Source: an uncultured Pelagibacteraceae bacterium (GTDB lineage Bacteria > Pseudomonadota > Alphaproteobacteria > Pelagibacterales > AG-422-B15). From it: 57,046 bases of DNA. Below are positions 26,217-31,449 of the stretch, piece by piece. Location: positions 1 through 57,046 of the forward strand of contig CACFAO010000007.1 in NCBI GenBank assembly GCA_902564295.1, in the 5' to 3' direction. Position 1 is the first letter of the stretch, and each line of letters opens with the position of its first letter. Position numbers and translations under genes: made by a program. Below the pieces are notes generated by a model. That model was given only the letters and a program-made list of their open reading frames with translations, was not told the DNA's origin and ran no database searches.

Positions 26217-27647
26217 TTAACTTTTAGTAGTAGCGAACGCTTCCAAAGCTTTTTGTCTAGAGGAACCAATCTCGACAATTGGCATTGGATAATCTTTACC
26301 AAGTTTAACATTTGCAGAGTCTAAGACATCTTTAGGTGCCTCCCAAGGATTAAATAAATACTTATTTGGCATATCCTTAAGTTCAGGAATATATTTTTTT
26401 GTATATTTGCCATCTGGATCAAATTTCTGACCCTGCATAACTGGATTGAATATTCTAAAATATGGTGCTGCATCAGCTCCTGAGCCAGCAATCCATTGCC
26501 ATCCTGCACTATTATTAGCAAGATCGGCATCAACTAAACAATCCCAGAACCATCTTTCACCGTGGTGCCAGTGTAATAATAAATTTTTGACTAAGAATGA
26601 CCCCACAACCATCCTCAAACGATTGTGCATATAGCCAGTCTGCCAAAGTTCCCTCATACCAGCGTCTACTATTGGATACCCTGTAAGTCCCTTTTGCCAT
26701 TTCTTTAATGCATCTTTATTTTTATCCCAAGGAAATTTATCAAACTTCTTTTGAAGATTTTCTTTTGGTAAGGTTGGGAAGTGGTACAGAAGATTGAAAG
26801 AAAATTCCCTCCAACCAAGTTCACTTAAAAAATGATCCAAATCTCTTTTGATTTCTTTTTTTCCTTCTTGGGTTTTTGATCGATACCAAACTTGGTTAGG
26901 TGAAACCTCTCCAAAATGTAAATGAGGTGATAGTTGCGAAACATTGTTTCCAGATGGAAAATTTCTACCTTCTTTATAGTTAGCAAGGCCTTCTTTTATA
27001 AAGACATCAATTTTATTATTTGCACCCTTCTCTCCTGGAGTCCAAAGTTTTTCCATATCACCATACCAATTGTTTTCTGGTATTAGCTTTAGATCATCTA
27101 TGCTATTGCTGTTTGTCTTATCCAACAGTAGGTTGTCTAACTTGGGTTTTTGTATTGGGGTTCTTGGCATTTCAGAATTCAAACAACCTTTTCTGTAGTA
27201 AGGAGTAAATACCTTATATGGAGTACCATCATTTTTGATCACGTTCCAAGGCTCCCAAAGAAGAGATCCATTAAATGTGTTTACACTTATTTTCTTATCT
27301 TCAAAAAAACTTTTGATTTTTTTATCTCTTTTTATTCGCCACGGTTCATAACATCTATTCCAGAATATCTCTTTAACATTATAAGTTTCAGTAAGTTTAA
27401 TAAGGATTTTCTTTGGATCGCCTTTATAGAGACTCAAATTATTATCTAATGATTTTTTTAGAGCAATTAATGATTGGTGAAGCCACCATTTACTAGCAGA
27501 ACCATTTATATGTTCTTTCGAGTTTTCATCATCAAATATAAAAATTGGCAACGTTGCACCATTTTTAATCGAATTATATAATCCAGGATTGTCTGATAGT
27601 CGTAAGTCTTGTCTGAACCAGAAAATATTAATATCTTTTTTGGGCAT
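26217..27647 (-). CDS. phr: Deoxyribodipyrimidine photolyase (cryptochrome/photolyase family)
   Basis: Light-driven repair of UV pyrimidine dimers using FAD plus an antenna chromophore. An N-terminal antenna domain (IFWFRQDLRLSDNPGLY, about 7-23) is followed by the FAD domain with GWREFSFNLLYHFP, MRELWQTGYMHNRLRMVVGSFLVK and NSAGWQWIAGSGADAAPYFR. The 476-residue length fits class I CPD photolyase. It suggests life in sunlit water. The downstream genes (membrane protein, cupin) run in the same direction but after 76 bp. Confidence 0.95.
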   Translation of the reverse strand: MPKKDINIFWFRQDLRLSDNPGLYNSIKNGATLPIFIFDDENSKEHINGSASKWWLHQSLIALKKSLDNNLSLYKGDPKKILIKLTETYNVKEIFWNRCYEPWRIKRDKKIKSFFEDKKISVNTFNGSLLWEPWNVIKNDGTPYKVFTPYYRKGCLNSEMPRTPIQKPKLDNLLLDKTNSNSIDDLKLIPENNWYGDMEKLWTPGEKGANNKIDVFIKEGLANYKEGRNFPSGNNVSQLSPHLHFGEVSPNQVWYRSKTQEGKKEIKRDLDHFLSELGWREFSFNLLYHFPTLPKENLQKKFDKFPWDKNKDALKKWQKGLTGYPIVDAGMRELWQTGYMHNRLRMVVGSFLVKNLLLHWHHGERWFWDCLVDADLANNSAGWQWIAGSGADAAPYFRIFNPVMQGQKFDPDGKYTKKYIPELKDMPNKYLFNPWEAPKDVLDSANVKLGKDYPMPIVEIGSSRQKALEAFATTKS

Positions 27648-27694: not shown

Positions 27695-28213
27695 TCATTG
27701 AATCTTATATTCAAAATTTTGAGTTGTTGGATTGTGCCCCAATAATTTAGCTCCATTTCTTATGTGATAGTGCGTTGCCATAGGCGTTAGTGGAGAAAGT
27801 GTTACTATTCTTTTATATCCCATTTCCTTGCCAAATTTTAGAGCCTCTTCCATAATTTTTCGTCCCGCTCCTTTTTTACGAGACCATACAGTGTAAGCAA
27901 TAATTGTATCAGCATTTTGCTCGTAAACTGCTAAACGGCTCATCAAATCTAACTCTCTTACTGAATGAGGAACGTCCTTAGTAAATGCCAAACACATAAT
28001 TCCCTCAATTTGATTATTGTATTCCAAGCCATAAATTTTTCTTTCATGTGAGGTTCTCCATTGAACATCAAGTTCTGGTCTCACAGGATCTTCAGACACA
28101 TCAATATCATCTAATTCAATAAATTTAGATGTCTTAATCCAGCTAAAATCAGTTAAATTAAAGTTAAATATTGATTTAAAAAAATTTAATATTTTTTGAA
28201 ATAAATTATTCAT
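27695..28213 (-). CDS. GNAT-like acetyltransferase-domain protein
   Basis: 172 residues. The second half has GNAT features: IEGIMCLAF (beta4-like), then AYTVWSRKKGAGRKIMEEALKFGKEMGYKRIVTLSPL, where KKGAGRKIM corresponds to the acetyl-CoA loop Q/RxxGxG/A. The first ~35 residues are hydrophobic and phenylalanine-rich. No substrate can be named. The start codon lies 4 bp from the outermost copy of the guaA-end repeat, so GAGTGGGA of that repeat may act as its ribosome-binding site. It was probably the original neighbour of guaA before the accessory genes entered. Confidence 0.72.
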   Translation of the reverse strand: MNNLFQKILNFFKSIFNFNLTDFSWIKTSKFIELDDIDVSEDPVRPELDVQWRTSHERKIYGLEYNNQIEGIMCLAFTKDVPHSVRELDLMSRLAVYEQNADTIIAYTVWSRKKGAGRKIMEEALKFGKEMGYKRIVTLSPLTPMATHYHIRNGAKLLGHNPTTQNFEYKIQ

Positions 28214-28216
28214 TTA

Positions 28217-28301
28217 TTATTCCCACTCAATAGTGCCAGTTTTTAGCCATAAATAGCAATACTTACAACGACTATTTTTAGAGTGTGTAAGATATGTGTA
28301 A
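28217..28301 (-). repeat. guaA-end repeat, copy D (outermost att-like unit)
   Basis: 85 bp, more diverged than copies B and C. It begins on the plus strand with TTATTCCCACTCAATAG, the complement of the guaA codons for T-I-E-W-E-stop. CTTACA lies at 28262-28267, TGTAAG at 28286-28291 and TGTAA at 28297-28301, the last two 11 bp apart. It abuts the start of the acetyltransferase gene. Confidence 0.88.
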
Positions 28302-28347
28302 TTTAATTTGAACAAAGCATTAGTATTATATTGAAACAAAAATAATT

Positions 28348-28779
28348 ATGAAGTATTTTAAAAGGATGAAAATATTTTTAACATTTATTACGTTTTTTTT
28401 CTTTCCAATAGGAAATGTTTTTGCTGATGAAATAAATTTAAAGTCAGACATGGATCATGGCCTCAATTTGGGTGTATTTGGAGGCGGTGACCCATTATGG
28501 AAAAAAAAACTAAATACCAGTATTGGAGATAGGATTACAATAGAAGACTATTACTTCTGGTCTTATGATGACACACAATGGATGAGTGGAGGAAAACTTC
28601 ATCTAATCAATGATGATAGCTTAGGTACATCTACTCGAGTTGTTTGTTCAGTTGACAGCAAGACAGGCGACGATATTGTTTCAATCGGTAAAAGAATGTC
28701 TGTTAAAGTTGATGGTATAATTGCGAAATACAATGATAGTGGAGGTTTAAGAATTGATCCCTGTAATATTACGTACTAA
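28348..28779 (+). CDS. Secreted OB-fold-like small protein (cassette cargo 3)
   Basis: 143 residues with a signal peptide (about 1-26, ending NVFADE). The mature part has VVCSVDSKTGDDIVSIGKRMSVKVDGIIAKYNDSGGLRIDPCNI, resembling small tRNA_anti-like/OB-fold secreted proteins, in which G-K-x-V-x-V-x-G-x-I is followed by a Cys-containing strand. Two cysteines could form a disulfide. Function unknown. It is the only gene between repeat copies D and C and is transcribed opposite to guaA, with its stop codon 8 bp from copy C. Confidence 0.7.
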   Translation: MKYFKRMKIFLTFITFFFFPIGNVFADEINLKSDMDHGLNLGVFGGGDPLWKKKLNTSIGDRITIEDYYFWSYDDTQWMSGGKLHLINDDSLGTSTRVVCSVDSKTGDDIVSIGKRMSVKVDGIIAKYNDSGGLRIDPCNITY

Positions 28780-28787
28780 TTTTTAAT

Positions 28788-28876
28788 TTATTCCCACTCA
28801 ATAGTGCCAGCTTGTAGAAGCCTTATATTACAATGCTTATAGCAGTTTTTTTTAAAGTGTGTAAGTTTTGTGTAAG
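28788..28876 (-). repeat. guaA-end repeat, copy C
   Basis: 89 bp, about ten differences from copy B by my count and no gaps. It begins with the same 17 bases as copies B and D (guaA terminal codons). CTTATA, replacing CTTACA, is at 28836-28841, and TGTAAG is at 28860-28865 and 28871-28876, exactly 11 bp apart. Confidence 0.9.
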
Positions 28877-28925
28877 AATTAATTTATTAAGTTCGGTAAT
28901 CCAAAAAACTTCTGCTGTTTTAAAA

Positions 28926-29234
28926 TTATCTTCTACCTTTTTTGTACTCTCTAACACAAAGTTCAAATACTGGGCTTCCAAAATTATTTGCGATTGAGCA
29001 ATAATTGTACGCTTTGTATTGATTATAATAAGGAAAAGCTATTGAAATTATAATAAGTATATAAACAAAATAAATAATTATACTTTTAAAGGATATTTTA
29101 CCACAAGACGGACATTTAATTGCATTTTTTGCAACGATATTATTGCAAGAAGTACAATTACTTTTGCCCGAAAGAGTTAAATAGTAACTTCCGATTATTA
29201 TTACGATAGCAATTATAAATTGAGTTAATGACAT
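28926..29234 (-). CDS. Zinc-ribbon membrane protein (cassette cargo 2)
   Basis: 102 residues: a membrane helix (about 4-22), a zinc-ribbon with two knuckles (C-T-S-C at about 27-30 and C-P-S-C-G at about 41-45), a second membrane helix (about 50-68), then a short tail with two more cysteines and a basic end. The layout puts the ribbon between the two helices. Function unknown; such proteins are widespread and uncharacterised. It is the sole gene between copies C and B. Its promoter appears to be carried within the cassette. Confidence 0.72.
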   Translation of the reverse strand: MSLTQFIIAIVIIIGSYYLTLSGKSNCTSCNNIVAKNAIKCPSCGKISFKSIIIYFVYILIIISIAFPYYNQYKAYNYCSIANNFGSPVFELCVREYKKGRR

Positions 29235-29240
29235 TTTAAA

Positions 29241-29246
29241 ATTATA
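29241..29246 (-). promoter_or_regulatory. Extended -10 promoter of the zinc-ribbon cassette gene
   Basis: Read on the minus strand, TGTTATAAT ends at 29241: TATAAT (29246-29241) with TG one base upstream. Six bases (TTTAAA) separate the hexamer from the ATG at 29234, so transcription would start at or next to the first codon. The arrangement matches that of lptF. Confidence 0.5.
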
Positions 29247-29272
29247 ACATTAATAATTATAAGAAGGTACTT

Positions 29273-29361
29273 TTATTCCCACTCAATAGCGCCAGTTTGT
29301 AAAAGCCTTGTATAACAATACTTACAGCGGCTGTTTTTAAAGTGTGTAAGTTTTGTGTAAG
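29273..29361 (-). repeat. guaA-end repeat, copy B
   Basis: 89 bp starting with the complement of the guaA terminal codons (TTATTCCCACTCAATAG). Downstream on the plus strand are CTTACA at 29321-29326 inside a small palindrome (ACAGCGGCTGT), and TGTAAG at 29345-29350 and 29356-29361, spaced 11 bp. These look like recombinase arm sites next to a core site. It is nearly identical to copy C. Confidence 0.9.
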
Positions 29362-29434
29362 TTTTTTTCACAATATTAATTTTTTAATCTCTCAATTAAT
29401 TTATTCAATTCAATTGAATTTGCAAAGGTTACAT

Positions 29435-29914
29435 CTACTCGATTAGTTGATCATTCAGAGGCCTAAAATTGAGATTTACTAGTTTCCGCCATCGCATTTG
29501 TCTATAGGAGTAAAAAATGAATGCGTAGATATAGATTGGTAATGTGAAAAGACCAGCATCGATAGAAACCTCATCTGTATATCGAGTTCCGCCTCCCTCC
29601 GATTCTAAAAAAATTAGATGATCCCAAGTTTTTGCTATAGAACCACTTCCATTATCTCTGAGAACCCAATGATCGGATTTTTGTGGAAATTCTATACCTA
29701 TAATTTGTTTTCCGATGGGTAAAAAATGAAATGCGAACATTTTTATGGAGAACTGCCTCTCAACCCATTTTGACGAAAAGGAACTTGGCTCAATAGGATA
29801 GAATTTCATTAAGCCAGCCGACACGTAATTGAGCAACGCTGGCGTCATTAAATAACTCTTAACTGTCTCTAAATCTGCTGCTAAATAGGTGCTGATTTTT
29901 AGCGTACGCATCAT
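29435..29914 (-). CDS. SRPBCC (START-like) domain protein (cassette cargo 1)
   Basis: 159 residues matching the ligand-binding SRPBCC/polyketide-cyclase fold: a beta start MRTLKISTYLAADLETVKSYLMTP, mid strands SSKWVERQFSIKMFAFHFLPIG, and a closing helix with an aromatic cluster. It probably binds a hydrophobic ligand; nothing more can be said. The start at 29914 overlaps the guaA stop as ATGA, so the gene is translationally coupled to guaA. A GTG at 29920 is possible but lies deeper in guaA. It is flanked by the guaA end and repeat copy B. Confidence 0.75.
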   Translation of the reverse strand: MMRTLKISTYLAADLETVKSYLMTPALLNYVSAGLMKFYPIEPSSFSSKWVERQFSIKMFAFHFLPIGKQIIGIEFPQKSDHWVLRDNGSGSIAKTWDHLIFLESEGGGTRYTDEVSIDAGLFTLPIYIYAFIFYSYRQMRWRKLVNLNFRPLNDQLIE

Positions 29915-29933
29915 TCCCACTCAATAGTACCAG
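29911..29933 (-). repeat. guaA terminal core (copy A, genuine guaA end)
   Basis: The 3' end of guaA itself, coding G-T-I-E-W-E-stop. Copies B, C and D share CTATTGAGTGGGAAT with it exactly and CTGG just upstream. The sequence following differs: here the stop is TGA, formed with the start of the cargo gene, while B-D continue as TAA. The similarity ends at the guaA side, as expected for an attachment core. Confidence 0.85.
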
Positions 29934-31449
29934 GTGGTTTTGAAGTTGTATCATATACAACTCTATTTATACCCTTAACTTCATTTATTATTCTTGTTGA
30001 AACTTTACTCAAAAATTCACCTTTGAAAGGATAAAAATCTGCCGTCATTCCATCAACAGACGTAACAGCTCTTAATCCGCAGACTTGTTCATATGATCTA
30101 TGATCACCCATAACACCAACAGTTTTAATTGGCATCAAGACTGCAAATGCTTGCCAAATTTTATCGTATAAACCTGCTTCTTTAATTTCTTCGATATATA
30201 TATTATCGGCCTCTTGTAAAATCTTTACTCTGTCTGCTGTAACCTCGCCAAGTATTCTTATTCCCAATCCGGGACCTGGGAATGGATGTCTGTTGATAAA
30301 TTTTTTTGGGAGTCTCATCTCCAGCCCTAATGTTCTAACTTCATCCTTAAAAAGTTCTCTTAAAGGCTCTACAAGTTTAAGTTTCATTCTTTTTGGTAAA
30401 CCGCCGACATTATGATGAGATTTAATAACTGATGTGGGACCACCATGAAAACTCTGACTTTCGATTACATCAGGATAAATAGTTCCTTGAGCTAAATATT
30501 TAGCATGTTTTATTTTGTTTGCCTCTTGGTTAAATATTTTTATAAAAAGATTACCTATTATTTTTCTCTTTTTCTCTGGATCAGTGGCGCCCTTTAGGGC
30601 TTTTATAAATATCTTTCTTGAATCTTTGACTATTAATCGAGATTTAAAATGCTTTTTAAACATTTTTACTACTTCTTTTGTTTCATTTATTCTCATTAAA
30701 CCTGTATCAACATAAATGCATGTTAATTGCTTATTTATGGCTTTTGAAATTATAGCTGCAGTAACAGTACTATCCACTCCACCCGACAATCCACAAATTA
30801 CCTGGTCCTTATGAACTGAATGTTTAATCTCAGTAATCTGATTTCTTAAATGATTTTTCATGCTCCAGTTTCTTTTTACCTTACAAATTTTGAATATAAA
30901 ATTTTCGATTATCTTATGACCATTGGGTGTATGGACTACTTCAGGGTGAAATTGTAGACCGTAATAAGATTGTTTTTTATTTTCAACCGCTGCAAACTTA
31001 GTATTTGAACTTGATGCAATGCTTTTAAAATCTCTTGGTAAACTAATAACCTTATCACCATGGCTCATCCAAACATAATTCGAGCTCATTCCTTTTCTAA
31101 ATCCTGAGAATAAAACGCTTTTTTTTGATGGCTTTATAAGAGTTTTACCAAATTCTCTTTTTTTTGAAATTTTAACTTTCCCACCAAGTTGGTAACATAA
31201 TAATTGCATGCCATAGCAAATTCCCAATATAGGGATATTTAAATTGAATATTCTTTTATCAATTTTTGGAGTATTTGACTTATGAACACTTGCTGGGCCC
31301 CCAGAGAAAACTATTCCTGAACATCCTCTATTAAGTATTTGCCTATAAAGTGATTTGCTTGACACAATTTCACAATAAACTCCAGCTTCTCTTACTCTTC
31401 TTGCTATTAACTGTGTTACTTGAGATCCAAAATCAACAATAAATATCAT
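29911..31449 (-). CDS. guaA: GMP synthase (glutamine-hydrolysing)
   Basis: Converts XMP to GMP using glutamine-derived ammonia. A class I amidotransferase domain with nucleophile C78 (GICYGMQLLCY) and GLQFHPEV (about 161-168) is followed by the ATP-pyrophosphatase domain with GLSGGVDST (about 222-230). The C-terminal dimerisation domain ends in the conserved PPGTIEWE. The 512-residue length is normal. The terminal codons serve as the attachment core of the adjoining cassette array, and the protein sequence is unaffected by the insertions. guaB lies upstream in the same direction. Confidence 0.98.
   Translation of the reverse strand: MIFIVDFGSQVTQLIARRVREAGVYCEIVSSKSLYRQILNRGCSGIVFSGGPASVHKSNTPKIDKRIFNLNIPILGICYGMQLLCYQLGGKVKISKKREFGKTLIKPSKKSVLFSGFRKGMSSNYVWMSHGDKVISLPRDFKSIASSSNTKFAAVENKKQSYYGLQFHPEVVHTPNGHKIIENFIFKICKVKRNWSMKNHLRNQITEIKHSVHKDQVICGLSGGVDSTVTAAIISKAINKQLTCIYVDTGLMRINETKEVVKMFKKHFKSRLIVKDSRKIFIKALKGATDPEKKRKIIGNLFIKIFNQEANKIKHAKYLAQGTIYPDVIESQSFHGGPTSVIKSHHNVGGLPKRMKLKLVEPLRELFKDEVRTLGLEMRLPKKFINRHPFPGPGLGIRILGEVTADRVKILQEADNIYIEEIKEAGLYDKIWQAFAVLMPIKTVGVMGDHRSYEQVCGLRAVTSVDGMTADFYPFKGEFLSKVSTRIINEVKGINRVVYDTTSKPPGTIEWE

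Follow-up and report, generated by a model that had tools for sequence, protein, structure and literature searches.

Bacteria of the SAR11 group reach extremely high abundance in the ocean with very small genomes, in which few mobile elements have been recognised. Elements moved by known integrases carry arm sites on both sides of the core. The 3′ end of guaA is a target of such enzymes: GAGTGGGA is the reported core of guaA-specific integrases (PMC7775301, PMC9376610), and a guaA-site integrase also moves the att-only segment CR2-sul2 (PMC9376610). Here we analyse a guaA locus from a SAR11-group genome in which short repeated units separate a series of small inserts. The stretch of DNA analysed (the window) is a single contig (G000:C7) of 57,046 bp from a 79%-complete assembly, and the nearest named relatives of its guaA are Pelagibacteraceae single-cell genomes. 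Three cassettes lie 3′ of guaA, closed by units B, C and D respectively, and a backbone GNAT gene stands directly after unit D:

26217..27647, minus strand: backbone DNA photolyase, conserved flank.
27695..28213, minus strand: backbone GNAT-like gene, far border of the variable region.
28217..28302, minus strand: unit D, putative att site at the end of cassette 3; 3 bp are deleted and the final box is shortened to GTGTAA.
28221..28791, minus strand: cassette 3, 571 bp, putatively the oldest.
28348..28779, plus strand: cassette 3 gene, 143 aa, signal-like N-terminus, without a family match.
28788..28876, minus strand: unit C, putative att site ending cassette 2, core at 28792-28799.
Boxes of unit C, minus strand: inverted box CTTATA; direct GTGTAAG boxes starting at 28859 and 28870.
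28792..29276, minus strand: cassette 2, 485 bp.
28926..29234, minus strand: cassette 2 gene, 102 aa, membrane segments likely, weak double zinc ribbon match (DZR, E=0.008, below the cut-off).
29273..29361, minus strand: unit B, putative att site ending cassette 1, core at 29277-29284.
Boxes of unit B, minus strand: inverted box at 29321-29326; direct GTGTAAG boxes starting at 29344 and 29355.
29277..29914, minus strand: cassette 1, 638 bp core to core, adjoining guaA, putatively the newest position.
29435..29905, minus strand: cassette 1 gene, 156-161 aa, protein identical in genome G027, with no family match in Pfam, NCBIfam or PADLOC.
29913-29933, minus strand: attB-like core formed by the final bases of guaA (core match).
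29915..29922, minus strand: core octamer GAGTGGGA (TCCCACTC on the plus strand), copy A at the guaA end, without arm boxes.
29911..31449, minus strand: guaA (GMP synthase; Pfam GATase and GMP_synt_C), host target gene.

The copy at 29913, the fourth in the window, is the true 3′ end of guaA and consists of the core alone. The GNAT-like and photolyase genes form a conserved backbone in most relatives, and 28 members of the GNAT-like cluster lie downstream of guaA in the compared genomes, which are incomplete single-cell or metagenome assemblies. At the end of one contig (G018:C1, L135) the photolyase seems to be inverted right after guaA, probably a chimera of whole-genome amplification.

A first-pass annotation had described units B and C as ungapped copies with about ten differences, each carrying an inverted box followed by two direct boxes 11 bp apart, and had compared this layout to an att site with arm-type sites. 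That each unit terminates a mobile cassette of its own was not part of that description. A script check reproduced these measurements: B (29273-29361) and C (28788-28876) align over 89 bp without gaps and with exactly 10 differences, the inverted box lies 48 bp into the unit (CTTACA in B, CTTATA in C), and the TGTAAG boxes of both stand at 72 and 83, a spacing of 11 bp. Copy D holds to the same order, with CTTACA at 45, TGTAAG at 69 and TGTAA at 80, again 11 bp apart. The palindrome reported as perfect in copy B (ACAGCGGCTGT) stood only in part, as its arms are perfect (ACAGC/GCTGT) but its centre is unpaired and it is absent from copies C and D and from several homologues; it is trivial. The core pattern occurs four times in the window against 0.00 expected from shuffles, and all three occurrences of GTGTAA-N5-GTGTAA in the 57 kb fall inside units (0.0 expected, 200 shuffles), with core-to-direct-box distances of 59, 59 and 56 bp. 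Because spacing common to units within the window could reflect copy similarity alone, distant instances provide the real test.

The core and the box layout are both conserved in other SAR11 genomes, as far as the sequences indicate. A DNA search of 397 genomes of the order Pelagibacterales identified 19 with the unit or its core, all belonging to family f1 and distributed over four genera. The core GGNRCNATTGAGTGGGARTRR occurs at 55 sites in 37 of the 397 genomes and a reversed-pattern control at none, and every site whose surroundings were inspected lies at a guaA end or a cassette end. Within the guaA neighbourhoods of core-bearing genomes, 15 genomes have at least one additional core downstream of guaA with no more than one mismatch; a sixteenth (G062) is divided between two contigs, and four further genomes have degenerate cores at this position. 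The box layout is present in 15 units from 11 SAR11 genomes, and alignment across genomes shows that 14 of the 15 keep the 11-bp spacing and the position of the inverted box, the exception being the second unit of G010, which has lost the arm with the direct boxes. Box columns are 96% conserved versus 90% for the other arm columns (permutation p about 0.09), and since these units are homologous copies, conserved spacing among them alone is weak evidence. Searched by itself across the order, the arm pattern gave matches outside guaA cassettes that all carry one mismatch, which is about chance level.

Most cassettes have boxes on a single side of the core. The cassette ends of G027, G009, G034 and G086 have the core and no TTACAC boxes, so that other integrases or arm loss must be allowed for. 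Cassette ends in G082:C2 and G035:C3 have arms of a second type (CTGTATACGTTGCTATA...), which likewise lie 32 bp from the core and have no CTTACAC boxes; they may reflect a different integrase specificity. In G062 and G024, where the inserts are larger, box pairs are present on the guaA side as well, and these inserts may resemble autonomous elements more closely. The G062 contig stops 0.47 kb downstream of guaA and truncates an insert (G062:C1, L186) that, by eye, starts with the N-terminus of an HsdM-like protein (type I restriction methylase), apparently interrupted by a stop and preceded by TTACAC box pairs.

A pattern set in advance, TCCCACTC-N48-72-GTGTAA-N5-GTGTAA, was run on 219 other alphaproteobacterial genomes and returned one match, in G515, flanked by the guaA end and by a second core at 130 bp from the first. 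In G515 the boxes lie at offsets 46/69/80 (44/67/78 in unit B), and this unrelated alphaproteobacterium retains all three boxes in the same layout (inverted box, 23 bp, box, 11 bp, box). The spacers of the two units are unalignable (4/17 identical, similarity not significant). The matched stretch (G515:C20, L229, 1304-1441), a 130-bp core-to-core remnant at a non-SAR11 guaA, resembles a collapsed, cargo-less att pair. The first-pass annotation had named two outcomes that would tell against arm-type att sites, namely box spacing that varies between copies and a conserved RNA fold with covariation; neither was found, and the sequences support the att-site reading.

Paired boxes one turn apart also accompany integrases of known type. 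In the window's own genus, G031 carries a 9.2-kb element encoding a P4-type integrase (Arm-DNA-bind_3 and Phage_integrase) and a primase-helicase. Pairs of GTGTAAA boxes 11 bp apart occur at both ends of this element and nowhere else in the 19-kb stretch, the right-end pair lies 58 bp from an 8-bp core, and a pattern related to these pairs was found only at that element in 53 family genomes. Joining the flanks at TTACCAAT restores tRNA-Thr(GGT). The element (G031:C1:101000-120000, L172, 8127-17305) is P4-satellite-like and inserted in the anticodon loop of the tRNA-Thr(GGT) gene, and apparently neither of its ends rebuilds the tRNA. In E. coli KFu015, a guaA island with its own integrase has a core followed after 61 bp by two ACCATG-type boxes 12 bp apart. 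An arrangement of core, about 60 bp and two boxes one turn apart thus appears common to sites that differ in the boxes and targets recognised by their integrases. An insert of 3.8 kb at guaA of E. coli TB06052 (L223, 5184-9011) encodes no integrase; two DUF262 genes lie between its TCCCACTC cores, and its ACCATG boxes resemble those of integrase-bearing guaA islands. Among 5375 matching E. coli genomes, 836 have a guaA-yfgI junction that is not 80% covered at any single place, and the interrupted junctions that were inspected have their inserts at the guaA end, making this end a busy integration site in E. coli. The guaA island is absent from E. coli CFT073 and K-12, which were used for the guaA seed.

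Core-to-core distances across the SAR11 loci range from 392 to 2068 bp, with a median of about 533 bp, and nearly all segments hold a single gene. Cargo includes a YdhR-like protein, zinc-ribbon proteins, a methyltransferase, a GNAT enzyme, a glycosyltransferase and unknown small proteins. Cassette genes run in the direction of guaA, the window gene at 28348-28779 being the sole exception seen, and this nearly uniform orientation suggests expression by read-through. A 2.07-kb guaA cassette in G026 (G026:C13, L122) contains a complete type II pair, a C5 methyltransferase and a BsuBI/PstI-type endonuclease, indicating that guaA cassettes can deliver phage defence.

Comparison of cassettes between genomes points to horizontal movement of these single-gene segments. 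The first cassettes (cluster 6) of G059 and G007 are 99.2% identical over 510 bp, and the guaA genes of the same two genomes are 74.3% identical. Cassette 1 of the window shares about 500 identical bp with G027, the identity beginning inside the core, and just upstream of the core the two guaA genes differ (ACTATTG versus ACAATTG). A G059-type cassette is placed behind the restriction-modification cassette in G026. Genera g7 and g8 share an older 95-aa cassette (cluster 11), and in g7 differing newer cassettes lie between cluster 11 and guaA, which fits insertion next to guaA. The junctions likewise appear site-specific. In a distal core, the bases on the 5′ side are those of the cassette and the bases on the 3′ side are those of the host; CTGGCGC is present in both G059 and G007, and the guaA ends of these hosts are CAGGAAC and CTGGCAC. 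Empty sites in G013, G025, G032 and G064 read GGGAGTAATTTATGAAGG, and in G001 GGGAGTAATTTATGAAGG is found behind the cassette, the guaA end now reading GGGAATAAGAA. These junction polymorphisms confine strand exchange to ATTGAGTGGGA, which includes GAGTGGGA, and this confinement rules out target-site duplication and homologous exchange via the flanks.

The cassettes encode no tyrosine recombinase, and the window genome has one Xer-like match. We did not find an integrase serving the guaA cassettes: the cassette-bearing genomes have XerC and XerD only, except for G082, which encodes one further integrase of 343 aa away from guaA. Integrases outside XerC and XerD in the family (G082, G080, G006 and G031) were rejected as candidates, none being at guaA or beside a unit, as were the P4-type integrases of other SAR11 genomes, which lie close to tRNA genes with guaA absent. 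No relative of the G031 integrase was detected within the fetched flanks of alphaproteobacterial guaA loci. Three scans of viral contigs (IMG/VR) for core plus arms and one for a shared cassette protein gave nothing relevant; three viral core matches (L166-L168) were attributed to chance and lie inside open frames where checkable. Phage and plasmid collections contained no copy of the unit, and the sole plasmid matches, 26-27 bp upstream of Acinetobacter repM (E 0.2-0.7), were taken as chance.

We consider it quite probable, judging from the sequences, that each unit is an att site belonging to a cassette that has no integrase and is mobilised in trans, and that the cassettes form an integron-like array. 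Each 89-bp unit would constitute an integrase attachment site composed of a 23-bp guaA-end core and one arm region, with the inverted box and the two direct boxes one helical turn apart making up the arm. A guaA-specific, P4-like tyrosine integrase (Arm-DNA-bind_3 class) would bind these boxes in trans, putatively as double-stranded DNA, and recombine the cassette site with the guaA end. Exchange inside GAGTGGGA would restore guaA and place the small cassette right behind it, and repeated insertion next to guaA would build a cassette array with the newest member nearest guaA. Cassettes may pass through circular intermediates and would be expressed by read-through from guaA.

An alternative that accepts the units as att sites treats the cassettes as remnants instead of mobile units, produced by tandem accretion of decayed islands (CIMEs) as integrase-bearing elements entered guaA serially and each shrank to one gene and an att site. 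CIME accretion is a published route to such tandems (PMC5704250), and it agrees with the collapsed 130-bp remnant in G515, the E. coli TB06052 guaA island without an integrase, and the arm-like boxes on the guaA side in G062 and G024, as expected of larger elements. We nevertheless regard accretion as unlikely, although it is the least improbable of the rivals. The 510-bp cassette has identical ends in species with guaA 74% identical and also in G026, and its recurrence across species and behind the G026 restriction-modification cassette indicates movement in the small form itself. Moreover, cassettes are as a rule 392-660 bp long with a single intact gene, a tidy outcome for random decay, and we found small cassettes shared intact and no intermediate series of decay from an ICE or IME.

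The remaining explanations seem to us very improbable. Modules of the dif type driven by XerC and XerD, as in Acinetobacter plasmids, would suit a family in which nearly all genomes have just these two recombinases, and pdif modules are likewise small and without a recombinase; the likely SAR11 dif, ATAATATATATTATGTAAA (common to G059 and G001), is nevertheless unlike the guaA core, and to our knowledge Xer sites have no arm boxes. We attach hardly any weight to a target-duplicating transposon, for which the core copies would be target-site duplications: every insert does lie between two guaA-end copies, but 5′ of the exchange the distal cores have bases specific to the cassette and hence are not copies of the host target. 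There is equally little reason to favour an RNA element or terminator carried with guaA ends. Pairing of the second direct box with the inverted box would give a weak stem, but RNAalifold assigns 14 units only -5.09 kcal/mol, and the compensatory-change check suggested in the first-pass annotation revealed no covarying RNA, with 1 of 13 predicted pairs doubly changed. Rfam returned no match of note, and the G515 spacers differ while the box positions hold.

If trans-mobilised att-site cassettes are indeed what these loci contain, then streamlined ocean bacteria have a cassette array without a resident integrase. An array anchored at guaA would explain gain and loss, with precise ends, of single genes such as the restriction-modification pair, zinc-ribbon proteins and methyltransferases, and junction sequences by themselves would suffice to test gene flow. 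Integrases acting at guaA would then be able to sustain non-autonomous cassettes in an integron-like way of life, and further examples can be sought by the sequence signature of a core, about 60 bp and two boxes one turn apart. A tentative extension, which we would not at present bet on, is that a P4-like integrase, whose carrier would probably be a roaming phage satellite or island, capturing single genes via a one-armed att site and stacking them behind guaA in SAR11, represents a third gene-cassette system beside integrons and dif modules.

The SAR11 locus shares features with several described systems. Islands and ICEs at guaA with P4-type integrases (GIsul2, ICERspD18B, Song et al. 2012) use the same gene, its 3′ end and the same core octamer, and the SAR11 sequences have what appears to be a guaA-type integrase site: a guaA 3′ end with core GAGTGGGA, exchange inside the core and conserved box spacing. 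The distance from core to paired arm boxes is about 60 bp in the E. coli example, as in the SAR11 units. The islands measure about 15 kb or more and encode an integrase, whereas SAR11 inserts are 0.4-2 kb, usually hold one gene and have no integrase of their own, which places them outside guaA genomic islands, IMEs and ICEs; their arms, unlike those of the islands, are mostly one-sided. Both CR2-sul2 and the SAR11 cassettes are att-flanked segments at the guaA core with the integrase gene outside the unit (PMC9376610), but the integrase gene of CR2-sul2 is next door in the same island, and in SAR11 the locus has none and none has so far been seen in the genome. Like CIMEs, the cassettes are att-flanked, integrase-less and stacked at one gene end (PMC5704250). 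With attL and attR retained and integrase and transfer genes absent they appear to fit the CIME definition, save that decay from a larger element is only a possibility; CIMEs are usually kilobase remnants of ICEs or IMEs, whereas SAR11 cassettes are compact and single-gene, with exact ends across species. Modules of the pdif type in Acinetobacter plasmids are also small and bounded by tyrosine-recombinase sites, with a recombinase acting in trans (as would be the case in SAR11), but the SAR11 cassettes are chromosomal and have arm boxes, and their site is not a dif-like XerC/XerD site. Compared with integrons, the SAR11 array has no integrase at the locus and thus no IntI, no attI, and a unit without a conserved hairpin fold in place of a foldable attC, and it relies on a housekeeping-gene anchor and putative double-stranded arm boxes. 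In both systems, however, the cassettes are single-gene with a recombination site at the gene 3′ end and genes oriented alike, and the array is anchored at one spot with the newest cassette first.
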